DNA from: Candidatus Petromonas tenebris
GTDB taxonomy: Bacteria > Bacillota > Clostridia > Peptostreptococcales > Caminicellaceae
Direction of reading: 5' to 3'
Assembly: GCA_014236755.1 (NCBI GenBank)
Contig: JACCKY010000004.1
Location: 1-64,000 of the forward strand
Length of the DNA stretch: 64,000 nucleotides
The notes beneath the pieces were generated by a model that was not told the DNA's origin, searched no databases, and saw nothing but the letters and a program-made list of their open reading frames with translations. Of the stretch, positions 6,907 to 43,979 are shown one piece after another (positions within the stretch are counted from its first letter, which is position 1; every line of letters starts with the position of its first letter). The translations under genes and the position numbers were made by a program.

Positions 6907-7036
6907 TAATTTAACTTGCCTCGCTAGTTCCTTATAGATATCCTTCAATAATCCTCTTTTGGCTCCGTAGAAGAGCTGTTTTAATAGAAAAGATTTAGAG
7001 ATAAAAACAACTCTTCAAAGTTTTTTCAGAGGAAAC
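6907..7036. mobile_element. MITE-like palindromic element, copy a, right arm missing
   Basis: The left end (AATTTAACTTGCCTCGCTAG) is followed by CTTATAGATATCCTTCAATAA, then the inner inverted pair AGAGCTGTTTT and AAAAACAACTCT. It closely matches copy c (41417-41590) up to GAGGAAAC near 7036. There copy c continues with its right arm, but this copy runs into the tetR coding frame. No transposase is encoded, so any mobility must have come from elsewhere. Confidence 0.7.
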
Positions 7037-21172: not shown

Positions 21173-21396
21173 AGTTGGATAGTATCCTTTAGGAGCTATA
21201 CCGCTGATAATTCATATGAGCAATTAAAACTTAATATGATCTTGTATCTGCTCTGAGCCTTTGCTATGGACCGAGACAGAAGGTATTAATAGGAATATAC
21301 ATACCCTTCTTAACTTATGCTCTGAAGGTTTTTGTTTTTTATATATACCCTTTCTATGTCTAAATGTCTTTTAGGCTTGGAAAGGGTTTTTGCTTT
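21173..21396 (+). ncRNA. Candidate non-coding transcript with two terminator-like hairpins
   Basis: A gene-free stretch with a TAGAAT -10-like box near 21165, several local hairpins (for example GGTATTAATAGGAATATACATACC), and ACCCTTC...GAAGGTTTTTG (to about 21326). A second T-tailed hairpin, ACCCTTTC...GAAAGGGTTTTTG, ends near 21396. It is separated from the symporter by a terminator and from panG by ~270 bases of repeat. I could not match it to 6S, SRP or a riboswitch class. Low confidence. Confidence 0.35.
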
Positions 21397-32635: not shown

Positions 32636-33913
32636 ATGAAAATAAATCTAAAAAAAAATATGCCGAATGAAAATAATATTTCAAATAATACAAAATTTTT
32701 AATTATCACTTTTTATGCCTTTTCTCTAGTTATATTCGGTTTTTTGGTCGATACTCCAAAGGAAATTTTTTATGGAATTTATAATATATTAATGCAGCCA
32801 GATACATTAATCACCGATTATATTGGACTTGGAGGAATGGGAGCTGCTTTTGTAAATTCTGGATTGTTAACCTTGATATTCATTTATATGTTATATAAAC
32901 TCAAGATTACTTTTAATGGAACTACAGTGGCTTCATTACTATTGATCATGGGATTTGCTTTTTTTGGGAAAAACCTCTTCAATGTTTGGTTTATAGTAAT
33001 AGGAGTTTATTTATATGCAAAAGTACAAAAAGATAAATTTTCAAAATATATCTATATAGCCCTTTTTGGAACAGCATTAGCCCCAATGGTTACAGAAATA
33101 ATGTTTAGCACGGTTATTCCTATATTTATTAGAGTTCCCTTAGGAGTTTTAGTTGGAATTGCTACGGGATTTATCCTTCCCCCACTGTCCAGTTATTTAC
33201 TAAGAGTTCACCAGGGATTTGACTTATACAATATAGGATTTACAGCTGGTATAATAGGAACGGGATTTGTTTCCATATTTAAGTCCTATGGCTTTCTACC
33301 TAGTCCACGAATGATTTGGACAACAGGAAATAATGTTATTTTGAGCGTATTTTTCTTTTTGCTATTTGTATCTATGATAATAGTTGGTTTTGTATTTAAC
33401 AATAGAACCTTCAAAAATGTAAAAAATATTATGAAGTATCCAGGAAGACTTATTACTGATTTTGTCATTTTAGAAGGCTTTGCACCGACATTAATTAACA
33501 TGGGTATAAATGGTATAATAGCTACACTTTATATATTGCTTGTAAATGGAGAATTGAATGGGCCTACTATTGGAGGAATTTTTACGGTTGTAGGATTTGG
33601 AGCTTTTGGTAAACATCCTAGAAATATTTTGCCTATATTTTTAGGAGTATATCTTGGGTCTTTAACTAAAACATGGTATATAAATGATCCTGCAATTTTA
33701 CTAGCTGCTCTATTTGGAACTGCTTTAGCACCAATAGCCGGAGAGTTTGGGTGGCAATATGGCGTCATAGCTGGATTTATTCATTCTTCGGTAGTATTAA
33801 ATGTTGGAGTTCTCCATGGAGGACTAAATTTATACAATAATGGCTTCGCTGCAGGAATTGTAGCTGCAATTTTAATACCTATAATCGAAGCATTTAGAAA
33901 GGATGAGATTTAG
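32636..33913 (+). CDS. DUF1576 membrane protein with two homologous halves
   Basis: A 425-residue protein with about 10-12 membrane helices. Three signatures occur twice in the same order: FFGKNLFNVWFIVIGVYL and FGKHPRNILPIFLGVYL, ALFGTALAPMVTE and ALFGTALAPIAGE, then GFDLYNIGFTAGIIG and GLNLYNNGFAAGIVA. This duplication suggests a transporter or channel, but no function is known to me for DUF1576. AGGGAGGGAG lies 6 bases before the ATG. The next gene overlaps its stop. Confidence 0.85.
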   Translation: MKINLKKNMPNENNISNNTKFLIITFYAFSLVIFGFLVDTPKEIFYGIYNILMQPDTLITDYIGLGGMGAAFVNSGLLTLIFIYMLYKLKITFNGTTVASLLLIMGFAFFGKNLFNVWFIVIGVYLYAKVQKDKFSKYIYIALFGTALAPMVTEIMFSTVIPIFIRVPLGVLVGIATGFILPPLSSYLLRVHQGFDLYNIGFTAGIIGTGFVSIFKSYGFLPSPRMIWTTGNNVILSVFFFLLFVSMIIVGFVFNNRTFKNVKNIMKYPGRLITDFVILEGFAPTLINMGINGIIATLYILLVNGELNGPTIGGIFTVVGFGAFGKHPRNILPIFLGVYLGSLTKTWYINDPAILLAALFGTALAPIAGEFGWQYGVIAGFIHSSVVLNVGVLHGGLNLYNNGFAAGIVAAILIPIIEAFRKDEI

Positions 33914-35867: not shown

Positions 35868-36481
35868 TAGCTTTTAAGTATATTTATAAAATTATTTATG
35901 ATTCTAGCAGTCATACCCCATATAACATATTTTTTATACTCATAAAAAATTATCGGATATCTTCCAGTTCGCCAATTATATACTCTCCCATTTTGGATTT
36001 TATGATATGGGAAGTCTTCAGGTACATCTAATTTTGTAGTCACGTAGTATTTATGAGGTTCATTTTTCATGAAGTAGTCTAACGGAACAGTAAAAATTTC
36101 TGCTACCTCGTCATGGCTGAAATTAATATTTTTAAAATCTATGTTTTCAAGTATTCCAACAAAGGGATACAATATCAAATTAAAAGGTGTTATGATATAA
36201 TCAGTACTTCCAATTACTCTTATATTTGATTCATCGATATTTAGTTCCTCACAGGTTTCTCTGATAGACGACTTCATCGGAGTTTCATTTTTTTCTATTC
36301 CACCGCCAGGAAAACATATTTCTCCAGGTTGAGTATTCAATTTTTGTGACCGAATTTCGAAAAGAAGATGAAGTTTGCTATTCCTTTCTATTAAGGGGAT
36401 TAATATAGCAAAACGCTTATATTTACCCTCAGGTTTTGGTTTCCTATCTTCAAATTTTTTATAGATAGTTTTTAAGTTCAT
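35867..36481 (-). CDS. NUDIX hydrolase, CoA pyrophosphatase-like
   Basis: A 204-residue protein. The Nudix box is complete as GGGIEKNETPMKSSIRETCE followed by ELNI. The preceding RNSKLHLLFEIRSQKLNTQP and PGEICFPGG are typical of the CoA diphosphatase group (NudL/YeaB), which hydrolyses CoA to 3',5'-ADP and phosphopantetheine. It stands alone. Confidence 0.88.
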   Translation of the reverse strand: MNLKTIYKKFEDRKPKPEGKYKRFAILIPLIERNSKLHLLFEIRSQKLNTQPGEICFPGGGIEKNETPMKSSIRETCEELNIDESNIRVIGSTDYIITPFNLILYPFVGILENIDFKNINFSHDEVAEIFTVPLDYFMKNEPHKYYVTTKLDVPEDFPYHKIQNGRVYNWRTGRYPIIFYEYKKYVIWGMTARIINNFINILKS

Positions 36482-36595
36482 CCTACCACCTCTGTAAATT
36501 TTCCATAATATTATAGATAACTAACTTTTCAGTTCTAAAGTTGTAACCCTATATATTATAACATTATTGCTTAATAATTTAAAAATGTTACCGTT

Positions 36596-36626
36596 AAAAT
36601 AGTAGTAGCCTATAAGAATCTAATTC
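36596..36626. mobile_element. MITE-like element remnant, copy e
   Basis: AGTAGCCTATAAGAATCT is identical to the left arm of copy b (17179-17196). The rest of the element is missing. Confidence 0.4.
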
Positions 36627-36635
36627 CAATAAATT

Positions 36636-36684
36636 ACAAATCCCCAGTACCTCCTTTCTTAAGCTACTGGGGATTATTTTATAA
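36636..36684 (-). terminator. Terminator after apbE
   Basis: AATCCCCAGTA pairs with TACTGGGGATT around a 15-base loop, with TTTGTAATTT on the minus strand side and ATTTTAT on the plus strand side. Confidence 0.65.
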
Positions 36685-36696
36685 AAAAACACCTTA

Positions 36697-37764
36697 TTAT
36701 TCCATTAATTTAAAACTAGAATCGGTCAACTCAAAATCATTCTTTAACCCTAAAGTAACATACACCTCTGAGTCTTTAGTGATAAATACGGCTTCAGCAC
36801 TATCAAACTTTTCAATAAACTCCAGTCCCTCTTCAAGTCCTAGAGAAAAGACTGAGGTAGATAAGGAATCGGCATCAATGGATTTATCAGCTATTATAGT
36901 TACAGAGACAAGATTATTCTCAACAGGATATCCTGTTTCCGGGTCTAATATATGGTGATAACGCTTACCATCTTTTTCAAAATATCTTTCATATACTCCT
37001 GAAGAAACAACACTTTTATCGATAATGTTTGCTATTCCTACATAATTACCCCTTGGGGCGAAGGGATTTTGTATACCTATCCTCCAGGAATCCCCATTCG
37101 GTTTTTTTCCATGGGCAAAGACATTTCCTCCTAGATTTATTATGGCACTGTCTACATTATTTTCTTTTAAGATTTTTATAGCTTCATCTGCTGCATAGCC
37201 TTTGGCTATACCCCCCAGATCAATAATCATTCCTGTTTTTTTCAACATAACACTTTTTTCTTCTTCATTTAAGATTACATTCTTATAATTTATTAAGGTC
37301 TTTTTTGCATTGATTTCTGCTTCAGAAGGTACCGATGCATATTCGGTGCCTATGTTCCAAAGCTTTACAAGGGGACCAATGGAAATATCAAATCTACCAC
37401 CGGAAAGCTCAGAAAAATATTTTCCCTTTTCAATTACATAAAACGTATCGTCAGAAACCTTAACAAAATCTTGGCCGGCATTTTGGTTTATATCCATAAC
37501 CTCACTATTCTCACTATTTATAGTCATTTTACTTTCTATTTCTCTGAGTCTGTCAAATATTTTGGTAAACACTTCATCCGATGCGTCGTCGTAAAGACTG
37601 ACTGTAACGACGGTACCTAAAAGAAATTCAGTTTTGGAAACGGGCTCAATATTTTCATTACCTTTGTTTTGAACATTATTTTTACTGTTTGAACAAGCTG
37701 AGAATGTTAGTGCAGTTGACAAAATTAATATCAAAATCACTAAAGCTTTGCTATTTCTTGCCAT
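36697..37764 (-). CDS. apbE: FAD:protein FMN transferase, lipoprotein
   Basis: A 355-residue exported lipoprotein (signal ending LTFSAC). It attaches FMN to Thr/Ser of extracytoplasmic flavoproteins. ApbE features are EFLLGTVVTVSLYDDAS, GRFDISIGPLVKLW, DLGGIAKGYAADEAI, NLGGNVFAHG and the Mg-binding IDADSLSTSVFSLG. ATG 37764 lies after GGAGG. The neighbouring upstream gene encodes a protein with two FMN-attachment motifs, its likely substrate. Confidence 0.93.
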   Translation of the reverse strand: MARNSKALVILILILSTALTFSACSNSKNNVQNKGNENIEPVSKTEFLLGTVVTVSLYDDASDEVFTKIFDRLREIESKMTINSENSEVMDINQNAGQDFVKVSDDTFYVIEKGKYFSELSGGRFDISIGPLVKLWNIGTEYASVPSEAEINAKKTLINYKNVILNEEEKSVMLKKTGMIIDLGGIAKGYAADEAIKILKENNVDSAIINLGGNVFAHGKKPNGDSWRIGIQNPFAPRGNYVGIANIIDKSVVSSGVYERYFEKDGKRYHHILDPETGYPVENNLVSVTIIADKSIDADSLSTSVFSLGLEEGLEFIEKFDSAEAVFITKDSEVYVTLGLKNDFELTDSSFKLME

Positions 37765-37824
37765 TATGAAATCCTCCATCTAATGAATATTTCTTGCCTT
37801 ATTATATTAAATTATAACATATAT

Positions 37825-37858
37825 TTAAGGCTTTGGAGATTATTCTCCAAAGCCTTAA
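37825..37858 (-). terminator. Strong hairpin between the FMN-binding lipoprotein gene and apbE
   Basis: A perfect 15-bp stem (TTAAGGCTTTGGAGA/TCTCCAAAGCCTTAA, TTAT loop). On the minus strand it is followed by AAATATATG rather than a clean T run. It may end or attenuate the lipoprotein transcript and keep apbE expression lower. Confidence 0.6.
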
Positions 37859-37902
37859 ATTGTAGATCTATAAAGTTAATAAATTTATACCGATTATGTT
37901 AT

Positions 37903-38799
37903 TTACTTAGCATCTTTTAAAGCTTCTTGAGCTAACTCAAAGAATTCCTTAACGTGGATGGATACACCTGAAATAGCATCAGTATGACCTTCTTCATCTT
38001 TATACTCGATGGCAGTAGGGTCTTGAGTTTCAAGTAGGTATGCCTCAGCCTTAGCAGCTTGCTCATGCCAAGGAGCCTGAGCACCACCCTTTTCTACCAT
38101 AGCATACTCACCTTTTTCAGATACAACATCTTTAGTATCTTCACCTTCTTCAGGAATTCCATCCCAGTCAGCAGCAACGATGTAGCCATTGATTACAGTT
38201 AAGTCGACATAGTACTTCCAACCATTACTGAATTCTTTTGCTTCGGCACGATAATTACCATCTTTGTATTGACCTCTACCAATAGGTCCCTTTTCTAAAG
38301 CTTTTTGAGCTAAATTAAAGAACTCTTTTACGTGGATAGATACACCTGAAATAGCATCAGTATGACCTTCTTCATCTTTATACTCGATAGCAGTAGGGTC
38401 TTGAGTTTTTATCAGATAAGCTTCAGCCTTAGCAGCTTGTTCATGCCAAGGAGCTTGAGCACCACCATTTTCGACCATTGGATAACCGCCATTTTTGGAA
38501 AGAGTTTTCTTGTCAGGACCGCCATTTACATTGGCACCATTCCAGTCGGCTTTGACAATTTTGCCGTCTTTAACTTCAATGGTTACAACGTACTTCCAAC
38601 CATTTTCACTGAAACTATCTTCTTGTGCGAAGTAGATACCATCTTTGTACTTACTGGATTGAGTATCAGATTCTCCTTTTGTATCTGCTGGTTCTTCCTT
38701 AACCTGTTCAACATTAGTAGCAGGTTGATTACCTGCACAACCAGCTAATAATGCAAGTACTAGGACAAAAACCAGACTCAAACTAAAAAATTTCTTCAT
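37903..38799 (-). CDS. Flavinylated lipoprotein with two FMN-binding domains (PplA-like)
   Basis: A 298-residue lipoprotein (lipobox ALLAGC, Cys21). Two tandem FMN-binding domains of ~115 residues are nearly identical in their second halves: each has GGAQAPWHEQAAKAEAYL, QDPTAIEYKDEEGHTDAIS and SGVSIHVKEFF. The D-A-I-S-G-V-S motif is the likely FMN attachment site, with Ser where others have Thr. This is the layout of Listeria PplA, which carries electrons outside the membrane. apbE lies just downstream and ndh2 is divergent upstream. Confidence 0.9.
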   Translation of the reverse strand: MKKFFSLSLVFVLVLALLAGCAGNQPATNVEQVKEEPADTKGESDTQSSKYKDGIYFAQEDSFSENGWKYVVTIEVKDGKIVKADWNGANVNGGPDKKTLSKNGGYPMVENGGAQAPWHEQAAKAEAYLIKTQDPTAIEYKDEEGHTDAISGVSIHVKEFFNLAQKALEKGPIGRGQYKDGNYRAEAKEFSNGWKYYVDLTVINGYIVAADWDGIPEEGEDTKDVVSEKGEYAMVEKGGAQAPWHEQAAKAEAYLLETQDPTAIEYKDEEGHTDAISGVSIHVKEFFELAQEALKDAK

Positions 38800-39348
38800 T
38801 TTAAATGCCCCCTCTTAAAAAATTTGTATATATCAAGCAAGAAATTAGACAGATAGATAATTTCTTGCCTAATAGCTAAAATAAAATTTTAACAAAACAA
38901 GGCATACTTTAGCTTATCAAAAAGTATTTGTTAAAATCTCAAAGCAAGTCCAATTAAGTATGTATAATATCTAATAAAACTAGAAACTTTAATATATTTT
39001 CAAATTTGTTAAATTATTGATTTAACTATTAAATCAATGTTAATTATATGATATAATAGAATTCGTAGCATGTAAAGTATATTATTCCTATAAAATTAAT
39101 TGCCTATATATAAAATTTATCGAAGATAAAAAATTATTATAAATTTCTATTGAAAGAAGTAAATGAAATTTAGTTACAATTATTAAATATTTATCCGAAA
39201 AGAAAGAGAAAATAACACTATATAACAGGAATACTCATCCATATATTTTTAACTGCTAATTAATTGGGTCTATACAATTAAAGTTATAAATAATAAATCT
39301 TTATTATTTAATAAAAAAACATTATATTAGAAATAAGGGGGAAAATCA
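38800..39348. other. Divergent control region between the lipoprotein and ndh2 genes
   Basis: A 549-base gene-free region, very AT-rich, between divergently transcribed genes. It holds the palindrome at 39016-39038, a TATAAT at 39052-39057 on the plus strand, and a TTTGTTAAAAT and a TTAACAAAACAAGGC segment. The plus-strand leader to ndh2 would be ~280 bases; no ORF or known riboswitch was seen. Confidence 0.5.
39016..39038. promoter_or_regulatory. Perfect 23-bp palindrome, candidate operator
   Basis: ATTGATTTAA-CTA-TTAAATCAAT, 10-bp arms with no mismatch. It covers the position of the -35 box for TATAAT 39052-39057, so a bound regulator would repress ndh2. The regulator is unknown; half-sites slightly resemble redox-type (FNR/Rex) sites but the spacing does not fit. 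Confidence 0.5.
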
Positions 39349-41289
39349 ATGGCTAATGAAAAAAATATAGTCATACTTGGTGCAGGATATGCTGGAGTAC
39401 ATGCTGCTAAATTACTGAACAAAAAGTATAAAAAGAGTGATAATATAAAAGTTACGCTTATTGACAAAAACCCGTTTCATACTTTGATGACGGATTTGCA
39501 TGAAATAGCTGGTGCGAGAGTTGAAACTGAGACTGTACAGGTGGAATTAAAGAAGATTTTTAAAGCTAAAAAGGTAGATGTGGTAATTGATGAGATAAAA
39601 GATATAGACTTTAAAAGCCAAAAATTAAGCTCAGAAAACTATACCTATGAATATGATTATTTAATAATAGGTACAGGTGCCGAGCCAACATTTTTTGGTG
39701 TTCCGGGAGCTGCAGAAAATGGTTTCACAATATGGTCCCTTGAAGATGCAGTTAAAATCAGAGAACACGTTGAAAAAATGTTCAGGAAGGCAAGCTTTGA
39801 ACGTAATCCTGAAAAGAGAAAAGAAATGCTTACCTTTGCAGTGGCAGGGGCAGGATTTACTGGTGTAGAAGTTATAGGTGAGCTTGCTGAATGGAGAAAG
39901 AAACTCTGCAGAGAGTATGGCATAGATAAGAAGGATGTAAGAATGATTATAATAGAAGCTATGCCTAATATACTTCCTATATTGGAGGAAGGTCTTCAGG
40001 CTAAAGCTGCAAGACGTATGAAGAAAATGGACATAGAGGTAATAACAGATTCTCCTATAACGGAGGTTAATAAGGACTCAATTTCTTTGAAAGATGGAAC
40101 AAGAATTCCTACTAAAACCCTCATATGGACAGCTGGAGTTCAGGGAAACAGCTTTGTAGCTAAATTAGGTTTAACAATGGGTAAAAGGAATAGAGTTCAG
40201 ACAAATGAATACATGCAGTCTTTAGACTATGAAAATGTGTATCTTGTAGGAGATAATGGTTATTTGGAAGAAGACGGTAAAAGAGGTTATCCTCAAATAG
40301 TTGAGGCAGCACTTCAAACGGCAGAAACTGCAGTTCACAATATAGTTGCCGATATAGAAAAGGGTGACAAGAAGCCTTTTAAATCAAACTTCCACGGCTT
40401 CATGGTTTCTATAGGAAGTAGATATGCGGTGGCCAATGTTGGTGGAATGAAGCTTTCAGGTTTCTTTGCCATGGCAGTAAAGCATATGGTTAATCTTCAT
40501 TATTTATTTGGAGTAGGCGGTTTTGCTTTATGTTGGACTTATATGATGCATGAATTTTTCCACATAAAGGAAAAACGTTCTATACTTGGTGGGCATGTAT
40601 CTAGAAAATCACCAACATTCTGGTTGTTACCTTTAAGAGTCTTTGTAGGATATAAGTGGTTAGAACAGGGACTTCATAAGCTACCAAAGATATTGGAAGA
40701 CCCTTCAAATATTTTCCTTATACCACCACCAGTTAAAAATGTTGCATCTGCAGTAAAAGATGCGGCTGTAAATGCCGTAAGTAGTGCATCACAGGCGGCT
40801 GCAGACGGCGCGGCTAAGGTAGCTCAAGCAGCAGCAGATGCTGCAAGTAGTGCAACACCAGCAGCCGATGGAGCAGCCCAAGCAGCAGAAGCTGCTTCCC
40901 AGTGGGGTGAAGCCTTACCGGTACCTGGTTTTATTGAAAGCATAGTTAAATGGTCTATGGAAACTTTTTTCTATACTCCCGATGGAGGATTCACAGCTTT
41001 AGCGGAGATTTTCCAAGCTGCTATGGTAGTAGGTGAAATAATAGTAGGACTGTGTTTAATAGCAGGTTTATTTACGGTGTTGGCATCAATAGCTTCAGTT
41101 GTAATGGGTATGATGATCTGGACTTCAGGTATGGCACCATATGAAATGCTTTGGTATCTGGCAGCAGGTATTGCTTTGATAGGCGGTGCAGGAAGGGCAT
41201 TTGGACTAGACTATTATGTAATACCTGTAATCAAGAACTGGTGGAAGAAGACCCGATTTGCAAATAAAACCTATTTGTATATAGATTAA
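39349..41289 (+). CDS. ndh2: Type II NADH dehydrogenase with C-terminal membrane (DoxX-like) domain
   Basis: A 646-residue protein. Residues 1-430 form the NDH-2 flavoenzyme, with the FAD motif IVILGAGYAGVHAA, the NAD motif FAVAGAGFTGVEVIGEL and the second FAD segment VYLVGDNG. An Ala-rich linker (about residues 465-525) connects to four C-terminal helices (TFWLLPLRVFVGYKWLEQGLHKL, then 560-630) of DoxX type. Such a membrane extension is found in the Listeria Ndh2 that passes electrons to demethylmenaquinone for extracellular electron transfer. AAGGGGGAAAA precedes the ATG. Confidence 0.92.
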   Translation: MANEKNIVILGAGYAGVHAAKLLNKKYKKSDNIKVTLIDKNPFHTLMTDLHEIAGARVETETVQVELKKIFKAKKVDVVIDEIKDIDFKSQKLSSENYTYEYDYLIIGTGAEPTFFGVPGAAENGFTIWSLEDAVKIREHVEKMFRKASFERNPEKRKEMLTFAVAGAGFTGVEVIGELAEWRKKLCREYGIDKKDVRMIIIEAMPNILPILEEGLQAKAARRMKKMDIEVITDSPITEVNKDSISLKDGTRIPTKTLIWTAGVQGNSFVAKLGLTMGKRNRVQTNEYMQSLDYENVYLVGDNGYLEEDGKRGYPQIVEAALQTAETAVHNIVADIEKGDKKPFKSNFHGFMVSIGSRYAVANVGGMKLSGFFAMAVKHMVNLHYLFGVGGFALCWTYMMHEFFHIKEKRSILGGHVSRKSPTFWLLPLRVFVGYKWLEQGLHKLPKILEDPSNIFLIPPPVKNVASAVKDAAVNAVSSASQAAADGAAKVAQAAADAASSATPAADGAAQAAEAASQWGEALPVPGFIESIVKWSMETFFYTPDGGFTALAEIFQAAMVVGEIIVGLCLIAGLFTVLASIASVVMGMMIWTSGMAPYEMLWYLAAGIALIGGAGRAFGLDYYVIPVIKNWWKKTRFANKTYLYID

Positions 41290-41304
41290 TTAAGCTTCAG
41301 TTTC

Positions 41305-41334
41305 CAAAGTCCTATCTGAAAAGATAGGACTTTG
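41305..41334 (+). terminator. Hairpin after ndh2
   Basis: A perfect 13-bp stem CAAAGTCCTATCT/AGATAGGACTTTG with GAAA loop, 15 bases past the stop. The following AAATTCAATT is not a good T run. Confidence 0.6.
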
Positions 41335-41416
41335 AAATTCAATTATTTAATTTGATAGGTTAAATATGTTCATGTTAAAATTAAGTAATAAAAGTTGTTT
41401 TTCAAATCAATTTATT

Positions 41417-41590
41417 GTGCTAGTTTCTTATGGATATCCTTCAATAATCCTCTTCAGGCTCCGTAGAAGAGCTGTTTAAATTAAAAAGATTTAGAGGTAA
41501 AAACAGCTCTTCAAAGTCGCTTTAGAGGAAACAGTGAAGGATATCTTAAAACTGTACTGTTAGACTAGTACAAGAGGTTAAATCAACATT
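41417..41590. mobile_element. MITE-like palindromic element, copy c (fullest copy)
   Basis: The inverted pairs are GGATATCCTTCA/TGAAGGATATC and AGAAGAGCTGTTT/AAACAGCTCTT. The ends include TTGTGCTAGTT and ACTAGTACAAGAGG. It is about 90% identical to copy a up to GAGGAAAC (41525-41532). Non-coding. It separates ndh2 from the NusG-II gene. Confidence 0.7.
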
Positions 41591-41613
41591 TGTAAAAGAA
41601 ATGAGGCAATAGT

Positions 41614-41994
41614 ATGAAACGGTTAGATATTATAATTATTGTTTTAGTAATTGTTGTATCTTTAGTTTCTATGGGAGTATTCAAGTCAATTTCCAATAAG
41701 CAATATGAAAAAAAATATGCTGAAATTAGCATCGATGGAAAACATTATAAGAGTATTCCATTAAATGACCCTTCATATACGGAAACCCTCACTGTAAAAA
41801 CAGAGCTTGGTACGAATGTAATTAGGATTGAAGATGGCGGAGCCAATATTATCGATGCAGATTGTCCCGATAAAATTTGTGTTAAGGATGGATTTATCAG
41901 TAAGCCAGGAGAGGTTTTAGTTTGTCTGCCTAACAAACTGGTGGTTGAGATAAAGGGGCAAAGACAATCAAATGTAGATGAACTTTCTTACTAA
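41614..41994 (+). CDS. NusG domain II protein (EetA-like)
   Basis: A 126-residue protein with one N-terminal helix (DIIIIVLVIVVSLVSMGVF) and an extracytoplasmic NusG-II domain (GTNVIRIEDGGANIIDADCP, then DKICVKDGFISKPGEVLVCL). The cysteines CPDKIC and VCLP are typical. In Firmicutes this protein sits beside an FMN-binding lipoprotein, NDH-2 and polyprenyl synthase, and in Listeria the equivalent (EetA) is needed for extracellular electron transfer. The usual partner EetB (Gx transporter) is absent here; the polyprenyl synthase follows after 20 bases. Confidence 0.82.
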   Translation: MKRLDIIIIVLVIVVSLVSMGVFKSISNKQYEKKYAEISIDGKHYKSIPLNDPSYTETLTVKTELGTNVIRIEDGGANIIDADCPDKICVKDGFISKPGEVLVCLPNKLVVEIKGQRQSNVDELSY

Positions 41995-42014
41995 AAGATA
42001 TTAAGGGTGATCAA

Positions 42015-42980
42015 ATGAGTAATTTTTGGAATGAATATCCTGATATAAAAAATGAACTTGAAATTGTTAAAAATATAATGAAAGAAAATGTAAAATCTGC
42101 TCACAAAGATATGGAAAAAGCCCTTTTAGACTTGATAGATTCAGGAGGAAAGATGATCCGACCTGCTTTTGTTCTATTATCAGGCAGATTTGGAGAATTT
42201 GACGGGGACAAGCTCTATTCACTTGCTGCAATAGTTGAAATGCTTCATATGGCAACCCTTGTACACGACGATATAGTTGATGATGCCAGATTGAGAAGGG
42301 GAAGTCCGACTATACAGAGCAAATATGGAAAAGATTATGCGGTTTTTATGGGAGACTTTTTATTTGCTAAATGCTTTATGTTATTATCTAATAATACTTC
42401 TATGGAAAGTATTAAAGGTGTTGCAAAGGTAGTTTCAAAAATATGTTTGGGAGAAATTGAACAGTTTTCATCAAGATTTACTCCCAATTTGTCGGTGAAA
42501 AAATATTTAAAAAGAATTGGAGCTAAGACAGCGGCCCTCTTTTCATTAAGCTGTTATATAGGAGCGTCAGAAAGCGGACTAGATGAAAAACAGTGTAAAA
42601 GTCTAGCCAAGGTCGGATATTATATAGGAATGGCCTTTCAAATAATCGACGACATATTAGATTACAACGGAAATCAAGGGTCAGTTGGAAAACCTATTGG
42701 AAACGATTTAAAACAGGGAATATTTACACTACCCCTTATTTATGCACTAAGAAGGGATAATAATACTTTATCAAAAATACTTTGTAAAAATGATTACAGT
42801 GAAGAGGATATAAAGAAAGTAGTTGAAATTACAAGGAAATCTAACGGAATAGAAGAAGCAAGAAGACTAGCAAAAAAATATACCGATAAAGCTTTTAAAC
42901 AGATTTCTGCTCTTCCGGATAATGAAAGCAGGAAAATATTTATGGATGTGGCTAAAAGGCTTTTAAATAGAGAGTACTAA
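42015..42980 (+). CDS. Polyprenyl diphosphate synthase (DmkB/HepT-like)
   Basis: A 321-residue all-helical prenyltransferase that builds the long isoprenoid tail of (demethyl)menaquinone. FARM is LVHDDIVDDARLRRG, SARM is FQIIDDILDY, and GGKMIRPAFVLLSG binds IPP. Its place directly behind the NusG-II gene matches the DmkB position in EET loci. No menA/dmkA is present in the window. Confidence 0.9.
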   Translation: MSNFWNEYPDIKNELEIVKNIMKENVKSAHKDMEKALLDLIDSGGKMIRPAFVLLSGRFGEFDGDKLYSLAAIVEMLHMATLVHDDIVDDARLRRGSPTIQSKYGKDYAVFMGDFLFAKCFMLLSNNTSMESIKGVAKVVSKICLGEIEQFSSRFTPNLSVKKYLKRIGAKTAALFSLSCYIGASESGLDEKQCKSLAKVGYYIGMAFQIIDDILDYNGNQGSVGKPIGNDLKQGIFTLPLIYALRRDNNTLSKILCKNDYSEEDIKKVVEITRKSNGIEEARRLAKKYTDKAFKQISALPDNESRKIFMDVAKRLLNREY

Positions 42981-42989
42981 AATATATAA

Positions 42990-43115
42990 GGTAAAATAGG
43001 TTACAGGAGTTAAGAATTAAGAGTTGAGAATTAAGACTTAGTCATATGGCTTGCGGCTCAAGGCTGAATCCTAGAAACTTTGACCTTGATTTTCTCAACC
43101 TTAGCCTTAACCTCA
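42990..43115. repeat. Degenerate low-complexity repeat, family R3, copy 3
   Basis: AGGTTACAGGAGTTAAGAAT is followed by TTAAGAGTTGAG-like units, then GACCTTGATTTTCTCAACC, in the same order as copies 1 and 2. It sits between two convergent genes. Confidence 0.5.
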
Positions 43116-43142
43116 ACATAAAAATCAGTTTTGCTGATTTTT
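43116..43142 (-). terminator. Hairpin ending the minus-strand TIM-barrel gene
   Basis: AAAAATCAG-TTTTG-CTGATTTTT, which contains the TGA stop of the minus-strand gene and can end both converging transcripts. Confidence 0.65.
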
Positions 43143-43979
43143 CAAAACAGTTTTAATAAATTCTATGTCTTCAAACAGATCATCAAGATAGCTTTTACCG
43201 CAGTAACTTAAAAGAAGTTCAAGATTCAGCACTCCGTCATAATCCTTATTTAATAAAAAATTTAATTGTTCTAAAAAATCTAAATCGCTATCTTTTACAG
43301 GAATATGGGATATGGATTGTTCTAGATTTACACCATGTATATGACTGTATATAATGTTTTGATAAAATTCATCATCATGAGGGATTTTTCCCGGGTAATA
43401 ATTTGTAAAATCATGACACATATCCCAGCATATGCCTAGTTTTGGGCTTTGAAATTCGTTTAATATTATATATATATCGTTTCTGTTATCTCCAATACTC
43501 CTTTCTTCTTCACGCTTTAAAGTTTCTATTGCCAATCTTATTGATATATTTTTCTTTTCGATGAAGTTTAAAAGCCAGTCTAAAAAGGACAAAGTATTAT
43601 AAATACCACCTTTTTTAAACTCAGGCTTTTTATAGTTTGCTCCATGGATCGCAATTACAGGTTTGCTGCAAGTTATATTTTGGATTTTTTCTACAATAGA
43701 AATAAATGACTCATATTTTTGAATAATTGACTTTTTAAGCTCGATAAAATTATTTATTTCATAAAGATAGTCATGGGCAAAATATGGAACATGAAAATTC
43801 ACATCCATATTTAATTCGCTGCAATGTTTTGCAATCATATCATATTTTTTCAAAGATAAAATATTTTCATCGGGACTTATTTCTATACTTGAAACTCCCA
43901 AATTTTTAGTTTTTGCAATAAGAGCTAAGGGCGTTATTTCGCTAAAAACTTTTTCATCGAGGGTAAATCCAATATTCAT
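43125..43979 (-). CDS. Sugar phosphate isomerase/epimerase (AP endonuclease 2-type TIM barrel)
   Basis: A 284-residue TIM-barrel protein. Metal-ligand positions of the family are visible: SSIEISPDE, AIHGANY, RLAIETLKREE (Glu), GICWDMCHDF (Asp, His), YSHIHGVN and LNLELLLSY (Glu). The substrate is unknown; it stands alone. AAAGGAGGCGC precedes the ATG on the minus strand. Confidence 0.8.
   Translation of the reverse strand: MNIGFTLDEKVFSEITPLALIAKTKNLGVSSIEISPDENILSLKKYDMIAKHCSELNMDVNFHVPYFAHDYLYEINNFIELKKSIIQKYESFISIVEKIQNITCSKPVIAIHGANYKKPEFKKGGIYNTLSFLDWLLNFIEKKNISIRLAIETLKREEERSIGDNRNDIYIILNEFQSPKLGICWDMCHDFTNYYPGKIPHDDEFYQNIIYSHIHGVNLEQSISHIPVKDSDLDFLEQLNFLLNKDYDGVLNLELLLSYCGKSYLDDLFEDIEFIKTVLKNQQN

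Follow-up and report, generated by a model that had tools for sequence, protein, structure and literature searches.

The flavin-based extracellular electron transfer (FLEET) system of Listeria monocytogenes comprises FmnB, PplA, Ndh2, EetA, EetB, FmnA, DmkA and DmkB, of which EetB is the subunit of a flavin exporter that binds flavin adenine dinucleotide (FAD) (PMC9973259; this and the other papers cited are represented here by excerpts of their text). Lactiplantibacillus plantarum likewise has FLEET genes without a complete pathway to 1,4-dihydroxy-2-naphthoate (DHNA), so that it probably relies on outside naphthoates: it performs extracellular electron transfer (EET) with added DHNA (PMC8837199), and the excerpt of PMC10746273 gives its route of quinone incorporation as unidentified. 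Importers of soluble quinone precursors have been predicted and are still to be annotated (PMC4746308). Here we describe a FLEET locus of Candidatus Petromonas tenebris, located on contig JACCKY010000004.1, whose first 64,000 nucleotides form the window analysed throughout, and a candidate importer of quinone precursors encoded outside the window, which we consider the most interesting lead. Other genomes, contigs and loci are designated where necessary by our own handles (G, C and L numbers).

The locus consists of five intact open reading frames (ORFs), apbE, pplA, ndh2, eetA and dmkB (Table 1), and their family matches support well its assignment to the known FLEET class. The window holds an ApbE-type transferase, a PplA-type lipoprotein, a membrane-tailed NDH-2 and EetA, and the genome encodes both DmkB, in the locus, and DmkA, on contig C110; the locus has no dedicated EetB, and the FLEET-type energy-coupling factor (ECF) transmembrane protein FmnA has no recognised dedicated counterpart. 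The top PDB match of ApbE is 7esa, which we take to be Listeria FmnB, at 363 bits against 203 bits for the runner-up. In NDH-2, residues 5-396 align with 4nwz (E 6e-77) and the domain ends at about residue 396; beyond it lies an Ala-rich stretch and a DoxX/DoxD-like part, alignable across 10 sequences (nine of them from relatives), with a DoxD (PF04173) match slightly under the cut-off (19.6 vs 22.7 bits). DmkB scores 311.9 bits with the HepT model TIGR02748, below the cut-off of 456.6. The best NCBIfam match of PplA, NF041941 'EET flavoprotein PplA', stays far under its cut-off (69.6 of 325 bits), and the first repeat (residues 52-170) matches the solved structure 2kzx (E 2.8e-50).

Table 1. 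Features of the FLEET locus, in window coordinates
Feature	Position	Strand	Basis
apbE/fmnB-like; 360-aa FAD:protein FMN transferase whose N-terminus is lipoprotein-like	36697..37779	-	PF02424, 320 bits
pplA-like; 298-aa lipoprotein with two FMN-binding repeats and a lipobox, LAGC, identified by eye	37903..38799	-	PF04205, 27.9 bits (cut-off 22)
Second flavinylation motif, D274-AISGV-S280	37960..37980	-	Motif scan
First flavinylation motif, D148-AISGV-S154, SGVS variant	38338..38358	-	Motif scan
Divergent intergenic region between pplA and ndh2	38800..39348	.	Position only
ndh2, 646-aa NADH dehydrogenase of type II, carrying an Ala-rich segment and a membrane tail that resembles DoxX/DoxD	39349..41289	+	PF07992, 150 bits
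Palindromic interspersed repeat separating ndh2 from eetA (limits set by eye and approximate)	41408..41581	.	Genome matches, alignment, fold
eetA, NusG domain II protein, 126 aa	41614..41994	+	PF07009 (NusG_II), 121.7 bits
dmkB-like polyprenyl diphosphate synthase, 321 aa	42015..42980	+	PF00348 (polyprenyl_synt), 238.7 bits

Compared with L. monocytogenes, the window shares an ApbE nearest to 7esa, a two-motif PplA-type lipoprotein, a tailed NDH-2, EetA and DmkB, but its genes form two divergent sets, dmkA is unlinked, dedicated eetB and fmnA are absent, and the genome has no MenD or MqnA/MqnD match over cut-off. The first-pass annotation, made from the letters of the window, had named the same five genes, in two divergent sets, and had found eetB, dmkA and fmnA missing from the cluster. 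Pfam matches, intact frames and strands (apbE/pplA against ndh2/eetA/dmkB) bear this out, and candidates for the three outlying genes sit on other contigs. Its further description of the locus as reduced is right for eetB, whose dedicated copy is lost, and for fmnA, of which no dedicated copy was recognised; it does not hold for dmkA, which is merely unlinked.

Both repeats of PplA carry DAISGVS, a variant of the canonical flavinylation motif D-x-x-[ST]-G-A-[ST] (review PMC12052999). A scan accepting two or three residues after the aspartate gave 91 hits in 61 PplA-like ORFs, five of which have no motif: SGVS 62, SGVT 11, TGAT 9, TGVS 6, SGAT 2 and TGIS 1. As SGVS is the commonest form, valine at this position is common in this class of PplA, and the ApbE of the locus therefore probably accepts it.

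Tailed NDH-2 orthologues (E below 1e-140) occur in nine of the 59 other genomes searched, and G029 has an NDH-2 without the tail (E 2.3e-60). At thresholds that we chose, the clusters around the nine tailed enzymes contain dmkB in all nine cases, apbE in seven and pplA in five. A scan of GTDB confirmed at least 566 loci, and the best 80 of these are referred to below as the named loci; the top match among them comes from Anaeromonas (Tissierellales, Thermohalobacteraceae), at 62% identity. DmkB lies in the span of 72 of the 80, PplA of 53, EetB of 38, EetA of 34, ApbE of 26 and DmkA of 19, as counted with hidden Markov models (HMMs) and thresholds of our own, some of the HMMs built from one sequence; a short EetA can escape detection, 25 of the 80 loci are shorter than 21 kb, and L159 and L038 are apparently one genome. 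In 12 named loci (by eye; L089, L125 and L167 are examples) apbE and/or pplA adjoin ndh2 and diverge from it, so the divergent arrangement is ordinary among relatives. EetA without EetB in the span is rare, being found in one named locus (L146) and in the window. P. tenebris adds another lineage with FLEET genes and shows that the cluster can do without eetB, fmnA and dmkA.

The same comparison bears on whether the locus is a decaying remnant that, having lost eetB and fmnA and acquired a repeat between ndh2 and eetA, no longer achieves flavinylation or supports useful EET. The loss of the dedicated eetB and the inserted repeat would fit decay, as would the variability of the family: no eetA was detected in the FLEET locus of G002, and neither eetA nor eetB lies between ndh2 and dmkB in G001 (85% complete, 6.8 kb contig). 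However, all five frames are intact; in the PplA proteins of five relatives (47-70% identical) both motifs persist in four cases, while L039 retains the second only; and eetB is out of span in 42 of the 80 named loci, so its linkage is not required and does not define the FLEET class. We regard decay as distinctly unlikely.

Where FAD export would come from is best seen in the wider genome. A check suggested by the first-pass annotation, a genome search for eetB and menA/dmkA, yielded a PF07456 (EetB family) gene on C43 and dmkA on C110. The C43 gene is the only PF07456 member of the genome, and the family is present, with at least one gene, in 58 of 60 genomes (P. tenebris included) irrespective of this NDH-2. 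In a 73-row tree that includes our copy and 29 of 64 family matches, with weak deep forks and flagged long branches, the C43 protein groups with copies from G001, G002 (its second copy), G003 and G004 (support 99/92), separately from the FLEET-locus copy of G002. It adjoins sdaA, as do its counterparts in G002, G003 and G004; for the G001 copy, the one flank visible is that on the opposite side. G003 and G004 share this type of eetB, and the best NDH-2 matches there reach only E 3.0e-12 and 7.6e-10. A relocated EET copy on C43 was rejected on the grounds of the tree, with its same-family copies, and the sdaA synteny. By these sequence comparisons the genome has lost its dedicated eetB and keeps, beside sdaA, the homologue found throughout the family. 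The two ECF-T (PF02361) genes, on C74 and C94, lie by our reading of the ORFs in an EcfA-EcfA'-EcfT-like operon and a cobalt-type operon, hence no dedicated fmnA was recognised.

Rnf-like genes (named by our own reading) are also present, including an RnfG-like protein with a computed PF04205 match and an SGAT motif, which suggests that the cell presumably has some route for extracytosolic flavinylation. The locus might serve another extracytosolic flavin enzyme, such as a fumarate reductase, or redox balance through a soluble shuttle, in place of mineral reduction; there are known cases of flavinylated reductases outside the cytosol whose electrons come from transfer components encoded at a separate place (PMC8238504). 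A search of the genome for FMN_bind (PF04205) listed only the RnfG-like protein and a 178-aa lipoprotein, which speaks against such a partner; this search missed the PplA of the window and is not exhaustive, so that absences from our initial searches of this genome may be incomplete, and no search was aimed at fumarate reductases. We consider this use of the locus unlikely. The 178-aa FMN-binding lipoprotein-like ORF, which has an SGAT motif, lies at L005 575-1111 (C77).

On the side of the quinone, the C110 gene encodes a DmkA-type DHNA prenyltransferase (NF004752, 391.9 bits, cut-off 289; NF009926, 329 bits, cut-off 316). To our knowledge, either known menaquinone pathway needs MenD or MqnA/MqnD, and a complete pathway (MenD and MenB, or MqnA/MqnD) is not found at the cut-offs used. 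Our searches for naphthoate genes covered PF02621 (MqnA/MqnD) and MenD in 11 genomes and MenB in P. tenebris; MqnB, MqnC and MqnE were not searched, and the named genomes (L089-L168) were not taken in. PF02621 has no match in the P. tenebris genome, which is 99.95% complete, and none in 8 of the 11 genomes, this one included. MenD passes its cut-off in none of the 11 (eight have weaker matches), and in 7 of 14 controls. The MenB-like protein of P. tenebris, at 159.8 bits below a cut-off of 342.7, is probably another crotonase. The three PF02621 matches, in G002, G023 and G029, were rejected as MqnA/MqnD: they are lipoprotein-like and stand beside permease and ATPase ORFs, and from this reading of the ORFs, made without a family search, they look like ABC (ATP-binding cassette) substrate-binding proteins. 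Three genomes having NDH-2 of this kind thus carry lipoprotein-like PF02621 ORFs with an adjoining permease/ATPase (L210, L211 and L212).

With neither MqnA/MqnD nor MenD over cut-off, the cell probably does not make the head group of its quinone but scavenges it from outside. De novo synthesis by an unrecognised route, which would make import unnecessary, could find room in the genes outside the searches and in the sub-threshold MenB-like protein; the near-complete genome nevertheless has, over cut-off, neither of the alternatives on which the known pathways depend, and we judge such a route improbable. The first-pass annotation had named the lack of a quinone pathway, together with that of a flavinylated lipoprotein, as telling against EET, and the former lack is half borne out: prenylation genes are present, and no naphthoate-forming gene exceeds its cut-off among MenD, MenB and PF02621.

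We therefore favour a FLEET chain supplied with FAD by the family EetB homologue and with imported naphthoate, a reading that we hold to be likely overall and whose electron steps, FAD export and import we infer from the sequences and their gene neighbourhoods. NADH would reduce NDH-2, held at the membrane by its tail, and NDH-2 would reduce (demethyl)menaquinone; the electrons would then reach the FMN carried by PplA, the lipoprotein, and from there outside acceptors, for example Fe(III). ApbE would attach FMN to both SGVS serines of PplA, with FAD probably exported by the C43 EetB homologue together with general ECF subunits. The polyprenyl tail would come from DmkB and be joined to naphthoate by DmkA, encoded at its unlinked site, the head group itself being probably imported.

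Several points weigh against this chain. On flavinylation, the SGVS of the window departs, as read from the sequence, from the canonical motif; in a fumarate reductase, the excerpted review reports, an Ala-to-Val change in the motif about halves flavinylation (~50%) and a Thr-to-Ser change cuts it by 10 to 55% (PMC12052999). On FAD export, the genome is by our searches without either dedicated eetB or dedicated fmnA, and in Listeria flavinylation of PplA needs EetB and FmnA unless FAD is added, the data suggest that EcfT cannot stand in for FmnA in export, and deletion of eetA, the gene retained here, had no EET phenotype (all in the excerpt of PMC9973259). On the quinone, MenD-like and MenB-like matches below cut-off do exist, and L. 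plantarum without dmkA or dmkB still performs EET when given quinone (PMC10746273), so that a pool of demethylmenaquinone may not be needed.

For import of the head group, the genome offers a candidate transporter. On C22 (L046 4516-8055) a second MenA-like gene (best match NF004751, 119 bits, below the cut-off of 264) is divergent from genes for an SsuA-like binding protein, an ATPase and a permease. This divergent order recurs in G053, whose binding protein is 53% identical, and G044 shows the arrangement MqnL-MqnP-binding protein-ATPase-permease. The FLEET locus of G002 itself holds the binding protein, NDH-2, EetB, DmkB, MqnL (TIGR03701, 651 bits, cut-off 495.9), an MqnP-like UbiA protein (above the TIGR01475 cut-off, under those of MqnP models, at 300 of 430 bits), UbiX and both ABC genes. 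Elsewhere, MqnL and MqnP denote resemblance to G002, from which alone our MqnL, MqnP and UbiX HMMs were built. An MqnL-like gene lies in the span of ten named loci, eight of which (L093, L094, L109, L118, L125, L154, L159 and L165, some ending at contig edges) have in addition the binding protein, the ABC ATPase or both; ORF listings of the other two, Brevibacillus L124 and Paenibacillus L148, give neither. In G011 and G022 the ABC pair adjoins MqnP/MqnL without the binding protein, and a lone binding protein is found elsewhere.

Fourteen binding proteins, comprising all ten linked to a prenyltransferase and four others, form one clade (99/99) in a 24-row tree; the ten rows outside it are weak hits and PF02621-type proteins, an expected placement, as we chose the rows and picked the outsiders for low score. 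Among the 59 other genomes, six have NDH-2 and the binding protein, four NDH-2 only, one (G058) the binding protein only and 48 neither (Fisher p 3e-5, with a post hoc threshold of E below 1e-20 for the binding protein, the tailless NDH-2 of G029 counted and relatedness uncorrected). Modelled with AlphaFold2 (pLDDT, the predicted local distance difference test score, 87.1; pTM, the predicted template modelling score, 0.81), the binding protein of L094 has an SsuA/TauA/PqqT-type fold. It matches 3un6 at Z 29.0, SsuA 2x26 at Z 28.3 (root-mean-square deviation 2.6, 275 aligned) and PqqT 9ooz at Z 27.4 (2.8, 275 aligned), with MqnD 2czl lower, at Z 19.5. Identity to the SsuA and PqqT types is 13-15%, and since binders of sulfonate, nitrate and bicarbonate score about equally, the ligand cannot be read from the fold. 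PqqT binds pyrroloquinoline quinone, a carboxylated quinone, and by analogy this is a precedent for a quinone-like ligand, though not a specific one.

The SsuA-like ABC system is thus a candidate for the import of soluble quinone precursors. We propose tentatively, with somewhat less than even confidence, that FLEET bacteria unable to make the head group possess an ABC importer dedicated to soluble naphthoate precursors, which would import DHNA where it accompanies a MenA-like gene (P. tenebris, G053) and 1,4-dihydroxy-6-naphthoate where it accompanies MqnL/MqnP-like genes (G002, G044, and relatives in Oceanirhabdus, Vallitalea and Clostridium), and which would supply the importer that quinone cross-feeding has so far lacked. 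L. plantarum differs in that P. tenebris has the candidate transporter beside a MenA-like gene. G002 (L036), Oceanirhabdus L094, Vallitalea L118 and Clostridium UBA701 L125 share with P. tenebris the NDH-2 family and the binding-protein clade, but have an MqnP-like prenyltransferase and the transporter in the locus, whereas P. tenebris has a MenA-like one on another contig. In open-licence literature, of which our coverage was partial, we found no description of an EET-linked UbiD/UbiX/ABC module or of a DHNA importer, and one may exist. Were the linked transporter indeed to import quinone precursors, it would provide a testable gene for quinone cross-feeding. Also on L046, a short UbiD-family ORF (799-1398, 199 aa, matched by the profile in two separate stretches) and a short ORF reading like part of a tripartite ATP-independent periplasmic (TRAP) permease (111-743) are possibly remnants of an aromatic-acid system.

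Within the locus, the divergent intergenic region presumably holds the promoters of both gene sets; promoter-like matches in 36400-43300 are no commoner than in shuffled sequence (32 vs 28.6 expected), and a terminator scan found 7 against 4.1 expected. Strong hairpins follow pplA (37823-37860, terminator scan) and ndh2 (41290-41330, seen in the sequence); because of them, pplA may be transcribed separately from apbE, and ndh2 separately from eetA-dmkB. The repeat between ndh2 and eetA, about 175 bp with near-inverted ends, looks like a miniature inverted-repeat transposable element (MITE) or a repetitive extragenic palindromic (REP)-type element: it occurs at no fewer than 40 distinct places among 42 genome matches (40 of 150 candidates scored), and a second copy in the window lies at 6923-7036. 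A known RNA at the locus was rejected: Rfam has no match there at the gathering threshold, and the structured sequence that separates ndh2 from eetA is this genome-wide repeat. Elsewhere in the window, Rfam matches a T-box leader (1027-1284) and a pan motif RNA (21176-21283), and positions 32636-33913 encode a DUF1576 protein (401.7 bits), a member of a family with no assigned function.

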